9,570 nt of DNA. It comes from an uncultured Oribacterium sp. (GTDB taxonomy: Bacteria > Bacillota > Clostridia > Lachnospirales > Lachnospiraceae). The stretch lies in contig CAKQWR010000071.1 in NCBI GenBank assembly GCA_934279105.1, positions 1 through 9,570 of the forward strand, written 5' to 3'. The first letter of the stretch is position 1. Each line of letters begins with the position of its first letter. Position numbers and translations under genes: made by a program. Under the pieces are notes generated by a model that worked only from the letters and a program-made list of their open reading frames with translations, searched no databases and was not told the DNA's origin. Shown here one piece after another: positions 2 to 9,133 of the stretch.

Positions 2-628
2 CTCTGTGAGCAGGATGCCGATGCACTGGCGGAGACGCTGGACGCAGTGGCGGAGAAGTTCGGTGATCTCCTTCCGGAGATGAAGTGGATCAACTTCGGC
101 GGCGGACACCACATTACGAGACCTGGCTATGACATCGCACGGCTCGAACAGTGCATCCGTCGTGCGCAGGACGCATGGGATGTAACGGTTTATCTCGAGC
201 CGGGCGAAGCCTGTGCACTGAATGCCGGCTTCCTGCTGACCCATGTACTGGACGTCGTGAAAAACGGTGATACGACCATCGCCATACTCGATGCCAGTGC
301 GGCGTGTCACATGCCGGACGTCATCGAGATGCCATACCGCCCGCCACTGCTTCAGGCCGGAGACGCGGGCGAAAAGGCCTGTACGGTCCGCCTCGCCGGA
401 CCGACCTGCCTCGCCGGTGATGTGATCGGCGACTACAGCTTCGACGCAGAACCGAAAATCGGGGATCTCCTCGTTTTCGGCGATATGGCGATCTACACGA
501 CCTGCAAAAACAACACCTTCAACGGCATGCCACTGCCGGGTATTTATACCCGGAAACCGGACGGCCAGACAGAAGAAGTCGTTCATTTCGGCTACCGGGA
601 TTTCAAGTACCGGTTGGGACGGATGTGA
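2..628 (+). CDS. nspC: Carboxynorspermidine decarboxylase, 3' part (5' end outside window)
   Basis: The reading frame is open from base 2, so the GTG at 47 is internal and the true start lies upstream. The 208 residues present are a bit more than half of the roughly 370-380 usual for NspC. NspC is a PLP-dependent decarboxylase of the alanine-racemase fold that converts carboxy(nor)spermidine to (nor)spermidine in the cytoplasm, in the alternative bacterial polyamine route. Visible family signatures are NFGGGHHITR, YLEPGEA (a phosphate-binding region), HMPDVIEMPYRP, the GPTCLAGD segment that carries the likely catalytic Cys and the substrate-contacting acidic residue, and the terminal FGYRDFKYRLG. 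Its usual partner, carboxyspermidine dehydrogenase, would be expected upstream, but this cannot be seen. No classical terminator follows directly; a large palindrome begins 32 bases after the stop. The family call rests on remembered motif patterns and is confident. Confidence 0.93.
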   Translation, partial: LCEQDADALAETLDAVAEKFGDLLPEMKWINFGGGHHITRPGYDIARLEQCIRRAQDAWDVTVYLEPGEACALNAGFLLTHVLDVVKNGDTTIAILDASAACHMPDVIEMPYRPPLLQAGDAGEKACTVRLAGPTCLAGDVIGDYSFDAEPKIGDLLVFGDMAIYTTCKNNTFNGMPLPGIYTRKPDGQTEEVVHFGYRDFKYRLGRM

Positions 629-660
629 TGGTGGACATCCTTTCTACGATGGAAACAGCG

Positions 661-901
661 TAGGCCGTGTGCCCGGAGTGCCTGCCATCCGAAACACAAT
701 ACTCCGAGTACGGAAAAAGCTAAAATCGACCCTGAAGAACCAGTAGGTCCTCCGCAATCGACTGAGTTTCCTTGATGGAAACTCAGTGTTGCGGAGGAGT
801 CTAAGGAAAATCACTCCAACTGGTTCTAGCAGGGGCGATTTTGTTTTTCTGCGCACTCTTCGTATGGTTTCGGATGGCAGGCTCTCCGGGCACACGGTCT
901 A
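661..901. repeat. 241-bp imperfect palindrome: MITE-like element or large structured RNA
   Basis: Bases 661-695 pair with 867-901 with one mismatch (T679/T883) and one G-T pair (664/898). This includes uninterrupted runs of 14 bp (665-678 with 884-897) and 16 bp (680-695 with 867-882). Further in, AAAATCG at 722-728 pairs with 836-842, AGAACCAGT at 736-744 with 819-827, and CCTCCGCAA at 749-757 with 789-797. An 11-bp apical stem (761-771 with 777-787) closes a 5-base loop. Bases 696-721 and 843-866 are recognisably similar but have diverged. The right arm has about 20 extra bases (798-817) with no match on the left. The outer ends are TAGGCC and GGTCTA, so a TA target duplication as in IS630/Tc1-mariner MITEs is possible but unproven. 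No convincing ORF lies inside. It could instead be a long hairpin RNA read through from nspC, or an elaborate terminator, because a T-rich stretch follows the inner stem at 839-849. Confidence 0.85.
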
Positions 902-950
902 AACGGCGGTTCCAGAGGAAGCGTACAGCCACGAGATTTACAAATCGTAA

Positions 951-988
951 TGTTTTCTATATATCTTGTAGTGTTTTCTCGATATAAT
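951..988 (+). promoter_or_regulatory. Probable promoter of the acetyltransferase gene
   Basis: A perfect -10 hexamer TATAAT sits at 983-988, which would start the transcript near 995 and give a leader of about 24 bases. No good -35 is found at 16-18 bp spacing (the hexamer there reads TATATC), so the promoter is either weak or activated. The 8-mer TGTTTTCT occurs at 951-958 and again at 972-979, each followed by an ATATA run, so the second copy lies just upstream of the -10. Confidence 0.55.
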
Positions 989-1018
989 GAGGAAAAATAG
1001 AATGGGAGTGTGGAGAAC

Positions 1019-1522
1019 ATGAGTGAAGAATTTGATATTCGGCATGCGCGTATGGTGGATATCGATGCGATTGCGGCGGTGGAAGCCGAGTGCTTTCCGG
1101 TGGCAGAGGCGGCGACACGGGAGGAATTTGCCGAGCGTATCCGCTACTATGGCGACTATTTCTGGTTGCTGTACGAGGGGGATAAACTGATTTCCTTTGT
1201 GGATGGATTCGTAACAGATGAAGCGGATCTAACAGATGAGATGTATGAACGTGCGGAAATGCATGATGAACACGGTGCGTGGCAGATGATCTTCGGGGTA
1301 AATACCCTGCCGGATTATCGGAAGCGTGGATATGCCGGTCGACTTCTCCGACGGGCCATCGCGGATGCACGTCAGCAGGGACGAAAAGGCGTCGTCCTGA
1401 CCTGCAAGGATCGCCTGGTGCATTACTACGCAGGCTTCGGCTTCATGGATGAAGGCATCAGTGGGTCTACACACGGAAACGTCGAGTGGCATCAGATGCG
1501 ACTGACATTCCCTATCGTCTAG
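1019..1522 (+). CDS. GNAT-family N-acetyltransferase
   Basis: This 167-residue protein has the GCN5-related N-acetyltransferase fold, which transfers an acetyl group from acetyl-CoA to an amine. The acetyl-CoA pyrophosphate loop (motif A) is visible at about residues 94-106 as VNTLPDYRKRGYA, with the R/Q-x-x-G-x-G/A signature R101-G104-A106. It is followed by helix LLRRAIADARQQ and motif B around YYAGFGF (137-143). The N-terminal ECFPVAEAAT (23-32) resembles the arylalkylamine N-acetyltransferase-like subgroup. The substrate cannot be inferred. ATG 1019 is chosen because GGGAG at 1004-1008 is correctly spaced for it; the upstream in-frame GTG at 1010 would directly abut that ribosome site. 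The gene appears monocistronic: it has its own -10 upstream, and a new promoter follows before the next gene. Confidence 0.88.
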   Translation: MSEEFDIRHARMVDIDAIAAVEAECFPVAEAATREEFAERIRYYGDYFWLLYEGDKLISFVDGFVTDEADLTDEMYERAEMHDEHGAWQMIFGVNTLPDYRKRGYAGRLLRRAIADARQQGRKGVVLTCKDRLVHYYAGFGFMDEGISGSTHGNVEWHQMRLTFPIV

Positions 1523-1534
1523 GTGTAGCTTACG

Positions 1535-1562
1535 CAGGCGTCCATCCTCCGGGACACGCCTG
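1535..1562 (+). other. Hairpin after the acetyltransferase gene, possible weak terminator
   Basis: CAGGCGT (1535-1541) pairs with ACGCCTG (1556-1562) around a 14-base loop, 12 bases after the stop codon. Inside it GTCC (1540-1543) can alternatively pair with GGAC (1552-1555). No T-run follows, so it is not a classical intrinsic terminator. It may stabilise the 3' end or act as a Rho-assisted stop. A second small palindrome, CTGAAATTTCAG, lies at 1571-1582. Confidence 0.4.
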
Positions 1563-1631
1563 AAGAACCGCTGAAATTTCAGTGCTTGTATGGATTTCCG
1601 TAGAATGGACGATGGTACATACGGATCACTG

Positions 1632-1640
1632 TGGTATAAT
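1632..1640 (+). promoter_or_regulatory. Extended -10 promoter for the membrane protein gene
   Basis: TGGTATAAT at 1632-1640 is a perfect -10 hexamer (1635-1640) with the TGn extension. The sequence 16-18 bp upstream (around 1611-1617) does not resemble a -35 box, which fits an extended -10 promoter. The predicted start near 1647 leaves a leader of about 80 bases before the ATG at 1726. Confidence 0.6.
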
Positions 1641-1725
1641 CAAAATGTAAACCAAGGTTCTGAACAGATTTTTCTGAAATATAAGCAGCTGGCTACGTTT
1701 AAAATAAGAAGTGGAGGAAATTGCG

Positions 1726-2400
1726 ATGGCAGATGAGCAGATGAGAAATACAACAAGTGCAGGCAGCGCTTCTTCGGCCTCCGCAGGTAGTCCGGTGAAG
1801 CGGGCACCACGGAATGATATAAGTGCTGTACCGAGAACCGAACGCTTACGTCGACCGGCGGATCCAAACGAACTGCTGACGCATAATCAGCCGCCACGTC
1901 GTCCGACCCCGAATCGGACAGAGCCGGAGCGCGCGGGTGTACCGTTGCAGGACATCCGAAAAGAGGATGCATCGAGCTATACCGGTGGTCTCGCTGCAGA
2001 AGAAGCAGCGGCGAAGCAGGCGAAATCTCGTCGCAACAGCGACAGCTTTATACCAGGTGCCGGCTATGAGGGCCCGACCAATGCAGAGCTGATGATCGAA
2101 ATCAAGCGAAACCGCTACATCATGATTACAGTGCTCGTGCTACTGTTCATCATGCTCGTGACCTTCTTCGGCTTCAGTATTTACATTTATCGTACCTTCC
2201 AGATGTATGAGACACAGCTGCAGGATGCATTCGATACCATGGAGAAAATCGACGATATGGTCGGTAAACTTCAGCAGACCTATGCGACCTACAGTGGTCA
2301 GATCGATGACTTCTTCGACACCGTCAGCGAACTGAAAGGTTATGTCGACACCTTCAAGAGTCTTCTCGGTTCGCTTCCGAAGATTCAGCTTCCGTTCTAA
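1726..2400 (+). CDS. Single-pass membrane protein of unknown function
   Basis: I do not recognise this 224-residue protein. Residues 1-125 are hydrophilic and probably disordered: a Ser/Ala-rich start, then an Arg/Pro-rich stretch (about 25-70, including PPRRPTPNRTEP), then a Glu/Ala/Lys segment. A basic patch (KRNR, 127-130) precedes one hydrophobic span at about 131-155. By the positive-inside rule the N-terminus should be cytoplasmic and the last 70 residues outside. That outer part (156-224) has no Cys and many amphipathic heptad-like positions (METQ-like start, DAFDTMEKIDDMVGKL, DDFFDTVSELKGYVDTF), suggesting a short coiled coil. There is no N-terminal signal peptide. ATG 1726 is chosen because GGAGG at 1713-1717 sits 8 bases upstream; the in-frame GTG at 1711 would overlap that site. 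The gene has its own promoter and terminator. A role in the envelope or in protein assembly is possible, but nothing shows it. Confidence 0.8.
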   Translation: MADEQMRNTTSAGSASSASAGSPVKRAPRNDISAVPRTERLRRPADPNELLTHNQPPRRPTPNRTEPERAGVPLQDIRKEDASSYTGGLAAEEAAAKQAKSRRNSDSFIPGAGYEGPTNAELMIEIKRNRYIMITVLVLLFIMLVTFFGFSIYIYRTFQMYETQLQDAFDTMEKIDDMVGKLQQTYATYSGQIDDFFDTVSELKGYVDTFKSLLGSLPKIQLPF

Positions 2401-2413
2401 AAGGTAGAATGAT

Positions 2414-2433
2414 CATACGTATGGAAACGTATG
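2414..2433 (+). other. Small inverted repeat downstream of the membrane protein gene
   Basis: CATACGT (2414-2420) and ACGTATG (2427-2433) form a 7-bp stem with a 6-base loop, 13 bases after the stop codon. No T-run follows. It precedes the real terminator and may only be a 3'-end structure. The remainder of the stretch up to 2488 shows nothing else. Confidence 0.35.
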
Positions 2434-2487
2434 AGACGAAGATAAATGCAGAACAGATGAATAAAGAACATTTCGCTTATCATCACT

Positions 2488-2541
2488 AGAGGGCGGCGTG
2501 CTCCTGAATGTATATCCAGGATGCACGACGCCCTCTTCTTT
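2488..2541 (+). terminator. Intrinsic terminator between convergent genes
   Basis: The left arm 2488-2506 pairs with 2517-2536 through about 18 base pairs, with one mismatch (G2496/A2528) and one bulge (T2522). The loop is about 10 bases, and TTCTTTAT follows. A further T-run lies at 2554-2559. It ends transcription from the membrane protein gene. On the minus strand the flank after the stem is not T-rich, so it probably does not serve the cupin gene well. Confidence 0.8.
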
Positions 2542-2622
2542 ATCGTATGTTCGTTTTTTCTGTGAATCATGCTCCACTGTAGAGTGGCAAGTCGATGTCG
2601 GTGTTCATAAGAGAACGTCGCT

Positions 2623-2976
2623 TTAGTCTTTTACGAAGTCCTCACGATACGGTGCGAAGATGTCGATGAGCTGTCCGGCCTCGAGGCAGACACAGCCATG
2701 CTCGACACCGTCGGTCTTCAGAAGGGTATCGCCCTCGGTGACGATGTGCTTCTCACCATCGATCGTAAACTCGAACTTGCCGGACTTGATATAGGTGATC
2801 TGGGTGTGCGGATGATGGTGAAGCTTACCGATCGCGCCCTCGTCGAAGGTGTTTTCGACGACCATGACGTCGTCAGAATACGCAAGTACGCGCTTCGTAA
2901 CGCCCTCGCCACCGGACTCGGTAACGATGTCCTTATAAAATACCCAACGTTCATTCTTGTGCTCGTGATGTAACAT
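2623..2976 (-). CDS. Small single-domain cupin, KdgF-like
   Basis: This 117-residue protein is one cupin barrel with no signal peptide. Cupin motif 1 is seen at about residues 47-66 (GAIGKLHHHPHTQITYIKSG), with a His cluster at 53-57 and Gln59 where classical motif 1 has Glu. Motif 2 is at about 82-95 (GDTLLKTDGVEHG), with His93 as the third metal histidine. The C-terminus has D105-x-F107-x3-R111 in DIFAPYR. The overall pattern, including the Gln ligand and the D-x-F-x3-R tail, is that of KdgF-type cupins, which linearise 4,5-unsaturated uronates from pectin or alginate breakdown. No uronate or pectin gene is nearby, so this exact activity is an inference and other sugar or small-molecule roles remain open. 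The ATG is set by AAGGAG, 8 bases upstream (plus coordinates 2985-2990). The gene is convergent with the membrane protein gene. Confidence 0.88.
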   Translation of the reverse strand: MLHHEHKNERWVFYKDIVTESGGEGVTKRVLAYSDDVMVVENTFDEGAIGKLHHHPHTQITYIKSGKFEFTIDGEKHIVTEGDTLLKTDGVEHGCVCLEAGQLIDIFAPYREDFVKD

Positions 2977-3008
2977 GATGTGTTCTCCTTTTTATGTCAC
3001 GTAATATT

Positions 3009-3040
3009 AGGGGGACGGATACGAGAGTGTCCGTCCCCTT
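3009..3040 (-). promoter_or_regulatory. GC-rich hairpin in the cupin leader
   Basis: Bases 3009-3019 pair with 3030-3040 (ten Watson-Crick pairs and one G-T pair), loop about 10 bases, with the core GGGGACGGA/TCCGTCCCC. It lies between the predicted cupin start site and its ribosome binding site, and also downstream of the metallophosphatase gene. The minus-strand flank after the stem, CTAATATTACG, is only mildly T-rich. It may be a leaky terminator for the upstream gene, a leader attenuator, or an mRNA-stabilising stem. Short GGGGAC...GTCCCC hairpins of this kind recur between genes in Clostridia (recollection, not tested here). Confidence 0.6.
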
Positions 3041-3059
3041 ACTCCGTATTGTTTTCTCT

Positions 3060-3088
3060 ATTTTAACGCTCGGTGAACCGCTTTACAA
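3060..3088 (-). promoter_or_regulatory. Sigma-A-type promoter of the cupin gene
   Basis: On the minus strand TTGTAA (plus 3083-3088) is followed after exactly 17 bp by TAAAAT (plus 3060-3065). Transcription would begin near 3053 and give a leader of about 77 bases containing the 3009-3040 hairpin. It lies 35 bp downstream of the metallophosphatase stop, so the cupin can be expressed independently of that gene. Confidence 0.65.
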
Positions 3089-3123
3089 GCTACGCACAAC
3101 ATAATAAAAACACCATAATAAAA

Positions 3124-4862: not shown

Positions 4863-6179
4863 ATGAAATTCATCCATCTCGCGGATCTTCATATCGGGAA
4901 GCGTGTCAATGCGTTTCCGATGCTGGAGGATCAGCGTTACATTTTAAAACAGATTCTTACGATCTTGCGTGAGGAGCAGCCGGATGGCGGTGTCATCCTC
5001 GCCGGTGATATCTACGACAAGGCGATTCCGAGTGCGGAAGCGGTCGAGCTGTTCGACGAATTCCTCTACCAGCTTGCCGCGCTGAAGCTGCGGGTGTTCA
5101 TCATCGCGGGCAACCACGACTCGCCGGAGCGCATCGCCTTCGGAAACCGTCTCATGGACCACGCCGGTATCTATCTGTCGCCGGTGTATGATGGCCACGT
5201 GAAGCGCATTACCTGCCTCGATGCCGCATCTGCATCCACCTGTCCGCCGGTCGATGTCTATCTTCTGCCGTTTCTGAAGCCGGCGAATGTCCGTCGTTTC
5301 TATCCGGATGAGACCATCGAGAGCTACACGGATGCGATGCGAATCGCCATCGCGCATATGGACATCGATCCGACACACCGGAATCTCATCGTGACGCATC
5401 AGTTTGTAAGCGGTGCGAGCCGCTCTGACTCAGAGGATATCTCTGTCGGCGGTACGGATAACGTCGATGCATCGGTGTTCGCACCGTTTGATTACGTCGC
5501 ACTCGGTCATCTGCACGGACCGCAGCAGGTCCGTTTCCGGTCAGCACCGGATGCCAATGCTGCTGATCAGGATACAAGCTCGGAAGCAGTGATACATGCC
5601 CTCCTGTCCGCCGATGCGGATTCGGAAGTATCCTCGACTGACCATTCGGAAAGCAGCGCATCAGCGGTAAAAACCATGACCGCTGGTCCGGTGATCCGTT
5701 ATTCCGGTACGCCACTGAAATACAGTTTCTCGGAGGCACGCCATCATAAGTCTGTGACGATCGTCGAAATCGGTGCGAAGAAAGCAGATGGCACGACGGA
5801 CGTCTGCATTGACACGCGGGAACTGAAGCCGATGCATGACATGCGGGAGATCCGCGGCAGTTATGAGGAACTCACGCTGCGCGCGAATTACGAGGGCACG
5901 GCGACGGACGATTATATGCACGTGACGCTTACCGATGAAATCGAGGTTCCGGACGCGGCACGTCATCTGCAGGTAATCTATCCGAACCTGATGAAGCTCG
6001 ACTATGATAACGCGCGGACGCGCGGACAGGGCGACGAAGGCCTGGAACTCGAAGCGCTCGAGGAGAAGTCACCGCTCGACCTGTTTTCAGAGCTTTTCGA
6101 AAAGCAGAATCATAAGGAGATGACCGAGGAGCAGGCACGTTACGTACAGGCACAGATGGAGAAAATCTGGGAAGCATAG
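4863..6179 (+). CDS. sbcD: Exonuclease subunit SbcD (Mre11-like)
   Basis: This 438-residue protein is the nuclease subunit of SbcCD, which cuts hairpins and processes blocked or double-strand DNA ends, working on nucleoid DNA with SbcC. Mre11-type metallophosphatase motifs run in order: D8 and H10 in ADLHIG, D49 in AGDIYD, N84-H85-D86 in GNHDSPER, H179 in VTHQ, and H216/H218 in GHLHG. The capping domain and the C-terminal SbcC-binding region follow. Residues about 226-276 (bases 5538-5690) are a Ser/Ala/Asp-rich, low-complexity insertion between GHLHGPQ and RYSGTPLKYSFSE, which are normally separated by only a short loop. ATG 4863 is chosen because it has AAAGGA just upstream and yields the standard MKFIHLADLHIG start; the ATG at 4776 overlaps the promoter. 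sbcC follows after 173 bp on the same strand with no terminator between them. Confidence 0.95.
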   Translation: MKFIHLADLHIGKRVNAFPMLEDQRYILKQILTILREEQPDGGVILAGDIYDKAIPSAEAVELFDEFLYQLAALKLRVFIIAGNHDSPERIAFGNRLMDHAGIYLSPVYDGHVKRITCLDAASASTCPPVDVYLLPFLKPANVRRFYPDETIESYTDAMRIAIAHMDIDPTHRNLIVTHQFVSGASRSDSEDISVGGTDNVDASVFAPFDYVALGHLHGPQQVRFRSAPDANAADQDTSSEAVIHALLSADADSEVSSTDHSESSASAVKTMTAGPVIRYSGTPLKYSFSEARHHKSVTIVEIGAKKADGTTDVCIDTRELKPMHDMREIRGSYEELTLRANYEGTATDDYMHVTLTDEIEVPDAARHLQVIYPNLMKLDYDNARTRGQGDEGLELEALEEKSPLDLFSELFEKQNHKEMTEEQARYVQAQMEKIWEA

Positions 6180-6240
6180 GACGGGACGCGTACAGATCGA
6201 GCATGATCGGAGAACATCGGATACTGTGCGGCATGCGGAA

Positions 6241-6354
6241 CGATGGCATCTGCGCGGAACTGAATCGCAAGGAAAGGAAGAAAGAAGCGCAGAAAATGTA
6301 ACGATGACATCCGTGTGGAACAGAATCTGATGGAAAAGTGTGGAGGAACAGAAT
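6241..6354 (+). repeat. Degenerate direct repeats in the sbcD-sbcC spacer
   Basis: Bases 6241-6277 and 6302-6338 align without gaps at about 27 of 37 positions (shared core CGATG, CATC, GGAAC, GAATC, GGAAA), a 61-bp period. A shorter third copy, GTGTGG-agg-AACAGAAT at 6338-6354, repeats 6313-6326 and contains the sbcC ribosome site and the first bases of its start codon. The rest of the 173-bp spacer (6180-6352) holds no terminator and no promoter that I can support. Confidence 0.5.
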
Positions 6355-9133
6355 GCGACCACTGAAATTAAAGCTGTCCGCTTTCGGACCATATAAGGGC
6401 GTGACAGAAATCGATATGGAGAAGCTCGGCGAGAGCGGGCTTTACCTCATCACAGGCGACACCGGTGCCGGCAAGACCACGATTTTCGATGCCATTACCT
6501 TCGCCCTATTCGGTGAGGCCTCGGGTGAGAACCGGACCGCCGGTATGCTGCGTTCGAAGTATGCAGAGCCGGAGACACCGACCGAGGTCGAGATGTGCTT
6601 CCGTTATCGTGGGAAGGACTATACCGTGAAGCGGAATCCGGAGTACGAGCGCCCGGCGAAGCGTGGCGGCGGCACGACGATCCAGAAGGCAGATGCGGAG
6701 CTGACGCTTCCGGACGGCGCGGTACTCACGAAGCCGCGGGAGGTGGACCGGAAGATCCTCGAGATTCTCGGCGTCAATCACCAGCAGTTTTCGCAGATCG
6801 CGATGATCGCGCAGGGCGACTTTCTGAAGCTGCTGCTGGCAGATACGAAGGAGCGACAGGAAATCTTCCGTAAGCTCTTCGAAACAGAACACTATAAGGC
6901 ACTGCAGATGCAGATCCTGAATGATTCGAAGCGTCTCTATGGCGAGAAAGAAGATGCTCGAAAAGCCATCGAGCACTATGTGCAGGCCACAACGGCAGAT
7001 CCACTGAGTCCACTCTCTGTCGAACTGGAGCGTGCGCATCAGGGGGCAATGCTGACGACGGACGTGCTGCCACTGCTCGAAAAGATCATCGCAGGCGATG
7101 AGGAGCGAAGCGGGCAGCTCGAATCGAACATCAGCGAGACGAGCGAAGCGCTCGAAAAAATCAGCGGGCATCTGACGACCATCCATGCGTATCAGGAGCT
7201 GAAAGCGACATATGAACGTACGGATGCGCAGCTGAAGGAGGCCGGACCGAAGCTGGAAGAACTTCGAACACGCTTCGACACGGAACAGGCGCGGGAACCG
7301 GAACGGAAAGAACTGGAACGCCGCATCACCGTTCTCACGGAGGCACTTCCTCAATACGAAGAGCTTAGCCGGCGTATGCAGCTGCAGGCGACACGGGAGC
7401 AGCAGCTTATCCGGATCCGTGCGGAACAGAAGACGCGCAGCAGCAGGCAGGCGACGTGGAAGCAGCAGCTCGATCAGGCGAAAGCCGAGCTGCAGACCAT
7501 CGGAATGGTAGAGGCAGCACTTGCCACGAAGATGGCAGAACAGGCGGAGAATGCACGGAAGCGCAGTGAGCTGAGTACGCTGACGAATCTGTTTGAGGCG
7601 CTGAAGGTGCAAAGTCAGAAGTATGCGGCAGCACAAAAAGACTTCGAGCAGGCATTTTCGAAGTATGAACAGGCAGATGCTTCCTATAAAGAGTGTAACC
7701 GGGCGTTTCTCTGTGAACAGGCGGGGATTCTGGCGAGCAGTCTGAAGCCAGGAGACAGCTGTCCGGTCTGTGGGCATGCCATCACCGCAGAGAGTGCGCT
7801 TGCGACGCTCTCTGCGTCGGCACCGACGGAAGCCGATGTGCAGGCGGCACAGAAGCGCGCGGAGCAGCTGCGGAGAGATGCGGAAGAAAAGAGCGGTACG
7901 GCGAAGGGACTTCGTGGAGAGTATCAGGGTGCGGCACAGCATGTGCTGCAGCAATGCAAGACGCTTTTCGGCGAAATGAAGGATCTGAACCTCGCATATC
8001 AGCGTGTGAAAGAAGCCTGTACGACGCTCACCGAGGAGGCAACGATACTGACGGCGGCGGTGAAGGAACTGACAGGGAAAGCAGAACGAAAGAAAACGCT
8101 GGAGAAGCAGATTCCGGACGCAGAGCAGAAGCTTGCGGCGCTGAATGATGAGATCCAGCAGGCAGAGGCGCAGCAGATCGAGCTTCAGACGGCCTTCACA
8201 GCAGCTGCCGGAGAGCTCGAGGAGCGGCGCGTGAAGCTTCCGTTTGCATCCGAAAAGGAGGCACGGGCAGAAATCGCTCGTCTCAGCAAACTTCAGACAC
8301 AGGCGATGGAAAGCTTCCGTCAGGTGGATCAGGCCGTACGTGTAGCGGAAGAGAAAATCGCAGAGCTGCGCGGTTCGCTGCAGCAGCTCGAGGAACAGAT
8401 GAAGACGGCAGAAGGTGCGCAGTATGATGAAGCGACCGAGCGGGCAGAGCAGACCCGCCTCAGTGGTCTGCGGCAGCAGCTCCGGGAGGAGGCCAATGTC
8501 GTCATTGCCCGCATCCAGAATAATTCGATGCATCTCGGAAAGATCCGTGCGGGTGCCGATGTGCTTACGGAGAAGGAACGGCACTATGCCTGGGTGAGTG
8601 AGCTTTCCAATACGGCCAACGGCACAGTGGCCGGCAGTGAGAAGATGACGCTCGAGACCTACATCCAGACGACCTACTTCGACCGCATCCTCAGGCGGGC
8701 GAACACGCGCCTCATGATCATGAGTGATGCGCAGTATGAGCTCGTGCGTCGGAAGAGCGCCGACAATATCAAATCGCAGTCGGGCCTCGAGCTGGACGTG
8801 CTCGACCACTACAACGGCACGCTGCGTTCGGTGAAGACCCTGTCGGGGGGAGAGTCCTTTAAGGCTTCCCTTAGTCTCGCCCTCGGGCTCAGTGATGAAA
8901 TCAGCTCCAGTGTCGGCGGTATCCGCCTCGACACCATGTTCGTCGATGAGGGCTTCGGCTCCCTCGACGAGGATTCGCTGCATACCGCGATTCAGGCGCT
9001 CGCGGAACTCACCGAGGGACATCGCCTCGTCGGCATCATTTCTCACGTCGGGGAGTTGAAGCAGCAGATCGACAAGCAGCTCGTCGTGACGAAGGACCGC
9101 GCCGGCGGCAGCCAGGTCGAGGTGGTCGTATAA
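6353..9133 (+). CDS. sbcC: Exonuclease subunit SbcC (Rad50-like SMC ATPase)
   Basis: This 926-residue protein is the ATPase and DNA-tethering subunit that controls SbcD; it is a little shorter than many SbcC proteins. The N-terminal lobe has FGPYKG, Walker A GDTGAGKTT (35-43, Lys41) and the Q-loop in AMIAQGDFLK (Gln154). A long coiled coil rich in Glu, Gln, Lys and Ala follows (about 190-440). The zinc hook CPVC at 470-473 lies almost exactly at mid-length. The return coil spans about 500-760. The C-terminal lobe has the ABC signature LSGGE (830-834), Walker B MFVDEGFGSLDED (Asp865, Glu866), and the switch histidine in IISHVGEL. All catalytic parts are present, so the protein should be active. 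ATG 6353 is set by GGAGG at 6342-6346 with a 6-base gap; the in-frame GTG at 6338 would overlap that site. It should share a transcript with sbcD. Confidence 0.96.
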   Translation: MRPLKLKLSAFGPYKGVTEIDMEKLGESGLYLITGDTGAGKTTIFDAITFALFGEASGENRTAGMLRSKYAEPETPTEVEMCFRYRGKDYTVKRNPEYERPAKRGGGTTIQKADAELTLPDGAVLTKPREVDRKILEILGVNHQQFSQIAMIAQGDFLKLLLADTKERQEIFRKLFETEHYKALQMQILNDSKRLYGEKEDARKAIEHYVQATTADPLSPLSVELERAHQGAMLTTDVLPLLEKIIAGDEERSGQLESNISETSEALEKISGHLTTIHAYQELKATYERTDAQLKEAGPKLEELRTRFDTEQAREPERKELERRITVLTEALPQYEELSRRMQLQATREQQLIRIRAEQKTRSSRQATWKQQLDQAKAELQTIGMVEAALATKMAEQAENARKRSELSTLTNLFEALKVQSQKYAAAQKDFEQAFSKYEQADASYKECNRAFLCEQAGILASSLKPGDSCPVCGHAITAESALATLSASAPTEADVQAAQKRAEQLRRDAEEKSGTAKGLRGEYQGAAQHVLQQCKTLFGEMKDLNLAYQRVKEACTTLTEEATILTAAVKELTGKAERKKTLEKQIPDAEQKLAALNDEIQQAEAQQIELQTAFTAAAGELEERRVKLPFASEKEARAEIARLSKLQTQAMESFRQVDQAVRVAEEKIAELRGSLQQLEEQMKTAEGAQYDEATERAEQTRLSGLRQQLREEANVVIARIQNNSMHLGKIRAGADVLTEKERHYAWVSELSNTANGTVAGSEKMTLETYIQTTYFDRILRRANTRLMIMSDAQYELVRRKSADNIKSQSGLELDVLDHYNGTLRSVKTLSGGESFKASLSLALGLSDEISSSVGGIRLDTMFVDEGFGSLDEDSLHTAIQALAELTEGHRLVGIISHVGELKQQIDKQLVVTKDRAGGSQVEVVV

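Follow-up and report, generated by a model that had tools for sequence, protein, structure and literature searches.

REPINs and REP-BIMEs are dispersed, non-coding, extragenic elements whose inverted, conserved ends form a hairpin with compensatory changes (PMC3116915). ERIC/IRU sequences (127 bp) and other bacterial MITEs are intergenic inverted repeats present in tens of copies, some of them in 3' UTRs (PMC10969869), and the bacterial stem-loop families of Cozzuto 2008 are intergenic with a common predicted fold (PMC2267715). Template-switch correction of quasipalindromes homogenises arms and inverts spacers (PMC8604942, PMC8794818). The family of palindromes described here resembles each of these in the respects named, as far as the portions of the sources drawn upon go. 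Its members are dispersed non-coding DNA palindromes, located mostly at the 3' ends of genes, with arms that are probably kept by template switching and exchange of hairpin tips, not by selection on an RNA fold.

The window, the whole stretch of 9,570 nucleotides that was analysed, contained a 241-base palindrome at 661–901 that is real and far beyond chance. Its outer arms (35 nt, 94% complementary) ranked first by length among the inverted repeats listed for the window. The fold of 641–920 had a minimum free energy of −164.8 kcal/mol, against a mean of −85.7 (sd 5.3) for shuffled sequences (z −14.9; 0 of 200 shuffles as good), and weak pairing extended past the element, to about 650–914. A covariance model of the family matched 691–871 with 171 bits; at E ≤ 1e-20 the window had no other match. 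The large near-perfect palindrome after nspC and the 11-bp apical stem with a five-base loop, both proposed by the sequence-only reading, were borne out. The parts of the element and its neighbors were as follows:

661..901, no strand assigned: palindromic element, the only copy found in the window (inverted repeat, fold and covariance model match)
661..695, plus strand: left outer arm; the outermost ~10 bp are specific to the locus, and the inner CCGGAG...GAAAC is common to the family
867..901, plus strand: right outer arm (inverted-repeat listing and copy alignment)
695..708, plus strand: internal loop, conserved 5' side, here CACAATACTCCGAG (copy alignment and covariation)
855..866, plus strand: internal loop, conserved 3' side, here ACTCTTCGTATG (copy alignment and covariation)
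722..746, plus strand: variable middle stems, 5' strand; the CTAAG site of the family is CTGAAG here, at 732–737 (copy alignment)
818..841, plus strand: variable middle stems, 3' strand (copy alignment and covariation)
799..817, plus strand: conserved 3'-side bulge, CTAAGGAAAA and neighboring bases, in one arm only (copy alignment)
761..787, plus strand: apical stem of 11 bp with the loop TTGAT at 772–776 (predicted fold)
2..628, plus strand: nspC, 3' part (PF00278), its stop codon 32 bases before the element
1019..1522, plus strand: GNAT acetyltransferase gene downstream of the element (Pfam search)
640..3110, no strand assigned: block of element, GNAT gene, membrane protein and cupin, inverted relative to the related locus L001 (10742–14277; alignment to L001)

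The same reading had called the inner arms diverged. Breaks in pairing do exist there; they are not plain decay, being motifs conserved across copies, with CACAGTACTnCGAG opposite CTCTnCGTATGG. In the copy alignment, CTAAG faced CTAAG with one A.A mismatch, and the conserved bulge CTAAGGAAAA occurred in the 3' arm only. A TA duplication at the ends, also suggested, was absent as a family trait: among 31 aligned copies the first two columns read TA only in the window, L098 and L109. The breakpoints of the inverted block lay within 631–673 and 3093–3123, the first at the edge of the palindrome. Window positions 1711–2400 encoded a predicted protein without a Pfam match, the DNA of which was conserved in L001.

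Open sbcD and sbcC genes occupied window positions 4863–9133, 4 kb from the 241-bp palindrome, and sbcD was also found in the genome of L001 (G001). SbcCD is a palindrome-cutting nuclease that cuts such hairpins. Dozens of near-palindromes longer than 200 bp persist in a lineage with open sbcD and sbcC genes.

A search with NspC gave 80 loci, of which 21, L001 and 20 others, had their genomes scanned for the element. L001, a locus of a Lachnospiraceae metagenome-assembled genome with an NspC 94% identical to that of the window, belonged to the closest genome found, G001, in which 31 places resembled the element (E < 1e-4). The covariance model (R1) was built from 30 of these places and the window. 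In total, 49 distinct copies were read in G001: 30 from the similarity search and 19 more through the model. None of the genomes of the 20 other loci matched, in a set that had no known positive, and an exact-pattern scan of genome contigs for the window element gave no match. Within a set of 17 genomes of the genus, ten had a model match at E ≤ 1e-6. Altogether, 143 distinct copies were read, 142 in ten related genomes and one in the window, after two duplicates were dropped; the family thus has at least 143 copies, where the sequence-only reading had linked an RNA to a single copy after nspC. The shuffle test and the 143 copies in ten genomes and the window rule out chance or artefact.

The copies read numbered 15 to 23 per genome in G005, G012, G014 and G017 (23 in G017) and one to three per genome in G002, G010, G011, G015 and G016. 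Outside the genus, 2 of 298 other Lachnospiraceae genomes gave one weak match each, in a scan that scored the top eight candidates per genome, which makes absence outside the genus approximate. The genomes are drafts, and the first-look filter in the genome searches may miss diverged copies. One G001 copy, L101, had a core of the family type and outer arms that read as unrelated sequence, yet still paired.

A tree of RNase P from 15 genomes split the six zero-copy genomes (G003, G006, G007, G008, G009 and G013) from nine carriers with a local support of 0.99; usable sequences were lacking for G004 and G012. In a search with SbcD, two zero-copy genomes, G003 (59%) and G004 (67%, across half of the protein), were nearer to the window than all carriers except G001, the others having 42–46% identity. 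This ranking is at odds with the RNase P grouping, a point that weakens the reading of the family as a whole. A phage or plasmid origin was rejected, as the window's copy had no phage or plasmid match, a G005 copy had no match in plasmids and phages, and patterns of the G005 and G001 types had no match in viral contigs. A literature search, with subscription journals mostly outside its reach, found no paper on this family.

The copies were concentrated at gene ends. Among the 140 of 143 copies with genes called on both sides, 94 lay in tandem gaps, 39 in convergent gaps, and 7 in divergent gaps; the control gaps numbered 65, 8, and 30, respectively (chi-square p 2e-8). With the element edge set at the core minus 25, and with gene and terminator calls that were our own simple ones, 111 of 172 distances from the edge to a stop codon fell within −15 to 40 nt, compared with 7 of 108 distances to a start. 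Another intrinsic terminator was present at 17 of 125 element-bearing gene ends versus 39 of 135 control ends (p 0.004). At the window itself a consensus terminator scan of 560–1060 gave a single match, on the minus strand and inside the element; on the plus strand, the interval from nspC to the GNAT gene had none. As no T run followed position 901 either, an intrinsic terminator in the strict sense was rejected. Judged from sequence, it is a fair inference that the hairpin itself may mark the transcript end, in either orientation.

Sizes spanned from 35 bp to nested doubles. The 16-mer GAGCCGGAGGGCATCC (≤1 mismatch) occurred 55, 39, and 40 times in G005, G012, and G014, and its reversed control 0 times in the 17 genus genomes. 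Pairs of GAGCCGGAGGGCATCC closed palindromes of 35, 36, 41–43, 57, 62–65, 68, and 127 bp (20 read), one of about 150 bp (L245:349–498), and full-length ones; in these, inverted conserved ends formed a hairpin, a mark of REPIN/RAYT systems. In G012, a 63-bp palindromic remnant (L357) occupied the same site as the full copies L176 and L212; its joint coincided with ATAAAT, a sequence found in both arms, as expected from slippage. A whole element lay inside the arms of another in L178/L214, L183, L200, and L211, with every joint at CTANGA; L167, the orthologue of the nested L211, was single. The site of L202 held a plain terminator hairpin in G014, and that of L204 a mini palindrome in G014; at the L204 site G012 retained the outermost arms together with a portion of the right one. 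L340 (G014) consisted of a left arm only, and its adjoining flank read like that of L192 in G012. Orthologous sites varied in presence and absence among the genus genomes; nine filled/empty alignments of five loci revealed no target duplication, some of the empty sites being deletion remnants. In the orthologous palindromes of this family, which come in many sizes, one can follow how palindromes grow, shrink, invert, and rearrange.

Some palindromes enclosed a second, small repeat (AGAAAGAATCC...GGGCAG), ~77 bp long and bearing three short hairpins. It lay near the apex in ten copies (L179, L180, L181, L198, L199, L200, L201, L216, L245, and L248) and in an arm in four (L242, L246, L249, and L253); L213, L195, L177, and L175 were orthologues without it.

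The aligned copies (30 from G001 and the window) had two-sided changes at 64 of 79 consensus pairs, so the covarying pairs that had been set as the sign of an RNA were there. Across 50 distinct rows, 464 cells had changed on both sides and 13 standard pairs on one side, 95.8% of cells were paired, and the covariation score was 0.428, against 0.141 when shuffled and at most 0.101 when slid. Covariance model E-values came near 1e-40 across species. Many dispersed copies, the sign that had been set for a MITE, were found as well (31 places in G001; 10 of 17 genus genomes), without the TA at both ends that was to accompany them. Because dispersed copies and covariation point to different answers, a third test was needed, namely the balance of G.T and A.C mispairs: a selected RNA stem should tolerate G.U, not A.C.

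For this count the left arm was aligned with the reverse complement of the right arm, by a procedure blind to strand and independent of RNAalifold. The 143 copies gave 12,024 Watson-Crick pairs, 234 G.T, 240 A.C, and 1,220 other mismatches. By position, G.T and A.C numbered 94 and 96 in sense tandem, 45 and 54 in antisense tandem, and 78 and 74 in convergent copies; on the element's model structures, which came from RNAalifold, they numbered 21 and 35, and 91 and 79. The RNase P control from 15 genus genomes contained 156 G.U and 6 A.C, on a structure that was also obtained from RNAalifold, which favors G.U over A.C. Since the mispairs of the element are strand-symmetric, pairing is kept at the DNA level, by a process indifferent to strand: either one arm is copied from the other, or there is selection on a DNA cruciform, which would likewise yield equal G.T and A.C. 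The family would pass covariation, the usual proof of a folded RNA, yet has no G.U excess, and so seems to be a natural example of covariation that arises at the DNA level. The count of G.T versus A.C is a cheap check that could serve other predicted RNA families.

Mirrored changes were seen directly in 14 close orthologue pairs (close genomes, flanks 82–98% identical), in which 94 pairs had two-sided changes that preserved pairing, 3 had two-sided changes and were unpaired, 81 had one-sided changes, and 1148 were unchanged. By our own arithmetic, sides changing independently at the observed rates would give about 14 two-sided changes, about a third of them paired. The close pair L178/L214 had two one-sided changes and no mirrored ones. 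Changes that are mirrored and strand-symmetric between arms, as found here, are those by which template switching in quasipalindromes is recognized. Mirrored changes also arise by exchange between copies, so these counts take in both processes together. Were template switching acting by itself, the conserved asymmetric loops should be lost; as the loops persist, they are selected or refreshed from other copies. In L201 and L179 the ~60 bases outside CTAAG on each side were nearly identical, and the inner stem and apex differed. Linkage among outer, middle, and apex modules was not significant (p 0.68, 0.24, and, for middle-apex, 0.06, which is near significance) in 35 non-orthologous copies, obtained by parsing 48 of the 60 copies of G005, G012, and G014 and dropping 13 as orthologues; this is expected if copies trade parts. 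Recent gene conversion was the part of the sequence-only reading that held best, both between arms and between copies.

In yeast, template switching homogenises the arms of inverted repeats and inverts their spacers, according to part of PMC8604942. Flips of the element were counted from flank matches, using only pairs in which both flanks matched on either side of both elements. Orientation was kept in 15 of 15 close pairs (within G005/G012/G014 and G011/G016). At distantly compared sites the element was flipped in six of nine cases (L083/L221, L096/L165, L105/L177, L166/L242, L210/L235, and L240 vs L248 and L154) and had the same orientation in three (L095/L241, L153/L249, and L200/L225). 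Repeated insertion at one site could account for the flips instead, an alternative raised by the L210/L235 site, which is empty in G014 and G016. Pairs with one common flank were outside this count, as were window/L084, where the block 640–3110 is inverted on one side, and L172 vs L189 and L208, which showed another rearrangement breakpoint at an element.

These results bear on several other explanations. A structured RNA family, either a 3'-UTR or a small RNA, with a stem of ~100 bp that is selected and pairs that covary for that reason, would account for the strong covariation, the reach of the covariance model across the genus, the conserved unpaired motifs, and the location near stop codons. 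We consider it quite improbable, as the hairpin RNA of the sequence-only reading is disfavored by the equality of G.T and A.C, which held when split by position and stood against 156 to 6 in RNase P. Opposite orientations at orthologous sites also speak against it, and an Rfam scan of 560–1060 gave two matches, both far below the gathering score. A classical MITE, that is, a deleted insertion sequence with ends cut by a transposase supplied in trans, is unlikely, if slightly less so. Dispersed non-coding copies in intergenic gaps, within the 50–500 bp of such elements, agree with it, as do presence and absence at orthologous sites, the conserved ends GAGCCGGAGGGCATCC in G005/G012/G014, and confinement to part of one genus. 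The filled and empty sites without a target duplication (nine alignments, five loci) and the lack of TA ends as a family feature argue against it. Among 53 left-arm matches in the drafts G014 and G005, judged by coordinates, no transposase-bearing relative was noticed; seven extra left-arm places were read, of which L339, L340, and L342 had no partner outer arm. Nor were transposases of the family compared (Y1) co-distributed with the element. The name MITE suits the element in a loose sense only, with no TA or other target duplication seen and no transposase linked.

A REPIN mobilized by a RAYT (REP-associated tyrosine transposase) is the least probable of these explanations, and very unlikely in our judgement. 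It has in its favor the inverted conserved 16-mers closing a hairpin, the compensatory changes, and the extragenic place, as given in part of the description of REPINs (PMC3116915), and RAYT-like genes exist in G001, G002, G005, and G014. Against it, 20 loci around Y1_Tnp genes (20 of 55 listed matches) gave no covariance model match, the flanks of eight RAYT-like or Y1 genes held no hairpin of the family, and G017, with 23 copies read, had no Y1_Tnp match. The draft genomes G010, G011, and G016 likewise gave none. A Y1/RAYT partner was therefore rejected: Y1 was not co-distributed with the element, and no element lay beside the Y1 or RAYT-like genes examined. As separate observations, a RAYT-like Y1 protein was encoded upstream of apparently the same gene in G014, G005, G001, and G002 (L365, L366, L370, and L371), a gene that presumably has a YifB/ComM-like start; a different RAYT-like gene in G005 (L367) was bracketed by GGGGACGGTTCTC hairpins; and G005 had 30 Y1_Tnp matches, many of them fragments and several located at contig ends, a pattern that would fit a recent IS200-type expansion breaking the assembly.

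Under the preferred reading of template switching and tip exchange, a replication fork would meet the hairpin and the new strand would be copied from the other arm, which would mirror mutations and sometimes turn the inner part over. Copies would trade inner parts by way of the conserved blocks common to them, and slippage would shorten some. New copies may enter hairpin tips, perhaps often that of a terminator hairpin behind a gene, and the hairpin would then act as the transcript end of the upstream gene in either orientation, a step proposed from sequence. A more specific and rather doubtful version invokes a dedicated cellular enzyme that would cut both arms of the extruded palindrome at the conserved CTAAG/CTAAG A.A mismatch and would swap, add, or nest tips between copies. 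If such a tip-exchange enzyme exists, the genus has, behind its genes, a library of modular palindromes that propagates itself.

The family is best read as REPIN-, ERIC-, or MITE-like in habit and self-homogenising. Unlike REPINs, it has arms of up to ~115 bp, nested to longer ones, it forms a size ladder, and no RAYT was found beside it; its mispairs are strand-symmetric, and no such test for REPINs was encountered in the available part of PMC3116915. In contrast to ERIC and other MITEs, it has no target duplication that was seen, its inner modules show no significant linkage, its elements are nested, and orientation can differ between copies at the same locus. The families of Cozzuto 2008 were proposed as possibly acting at the RNA level, and no strand-symmetry test was encountered in the available part of that source (PMC2267715). 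Quasipalindrome correction was studied in coding DNA and RNA genes, as given in part of PMC8794818; here it would act on dispersed repeats with very long arms.
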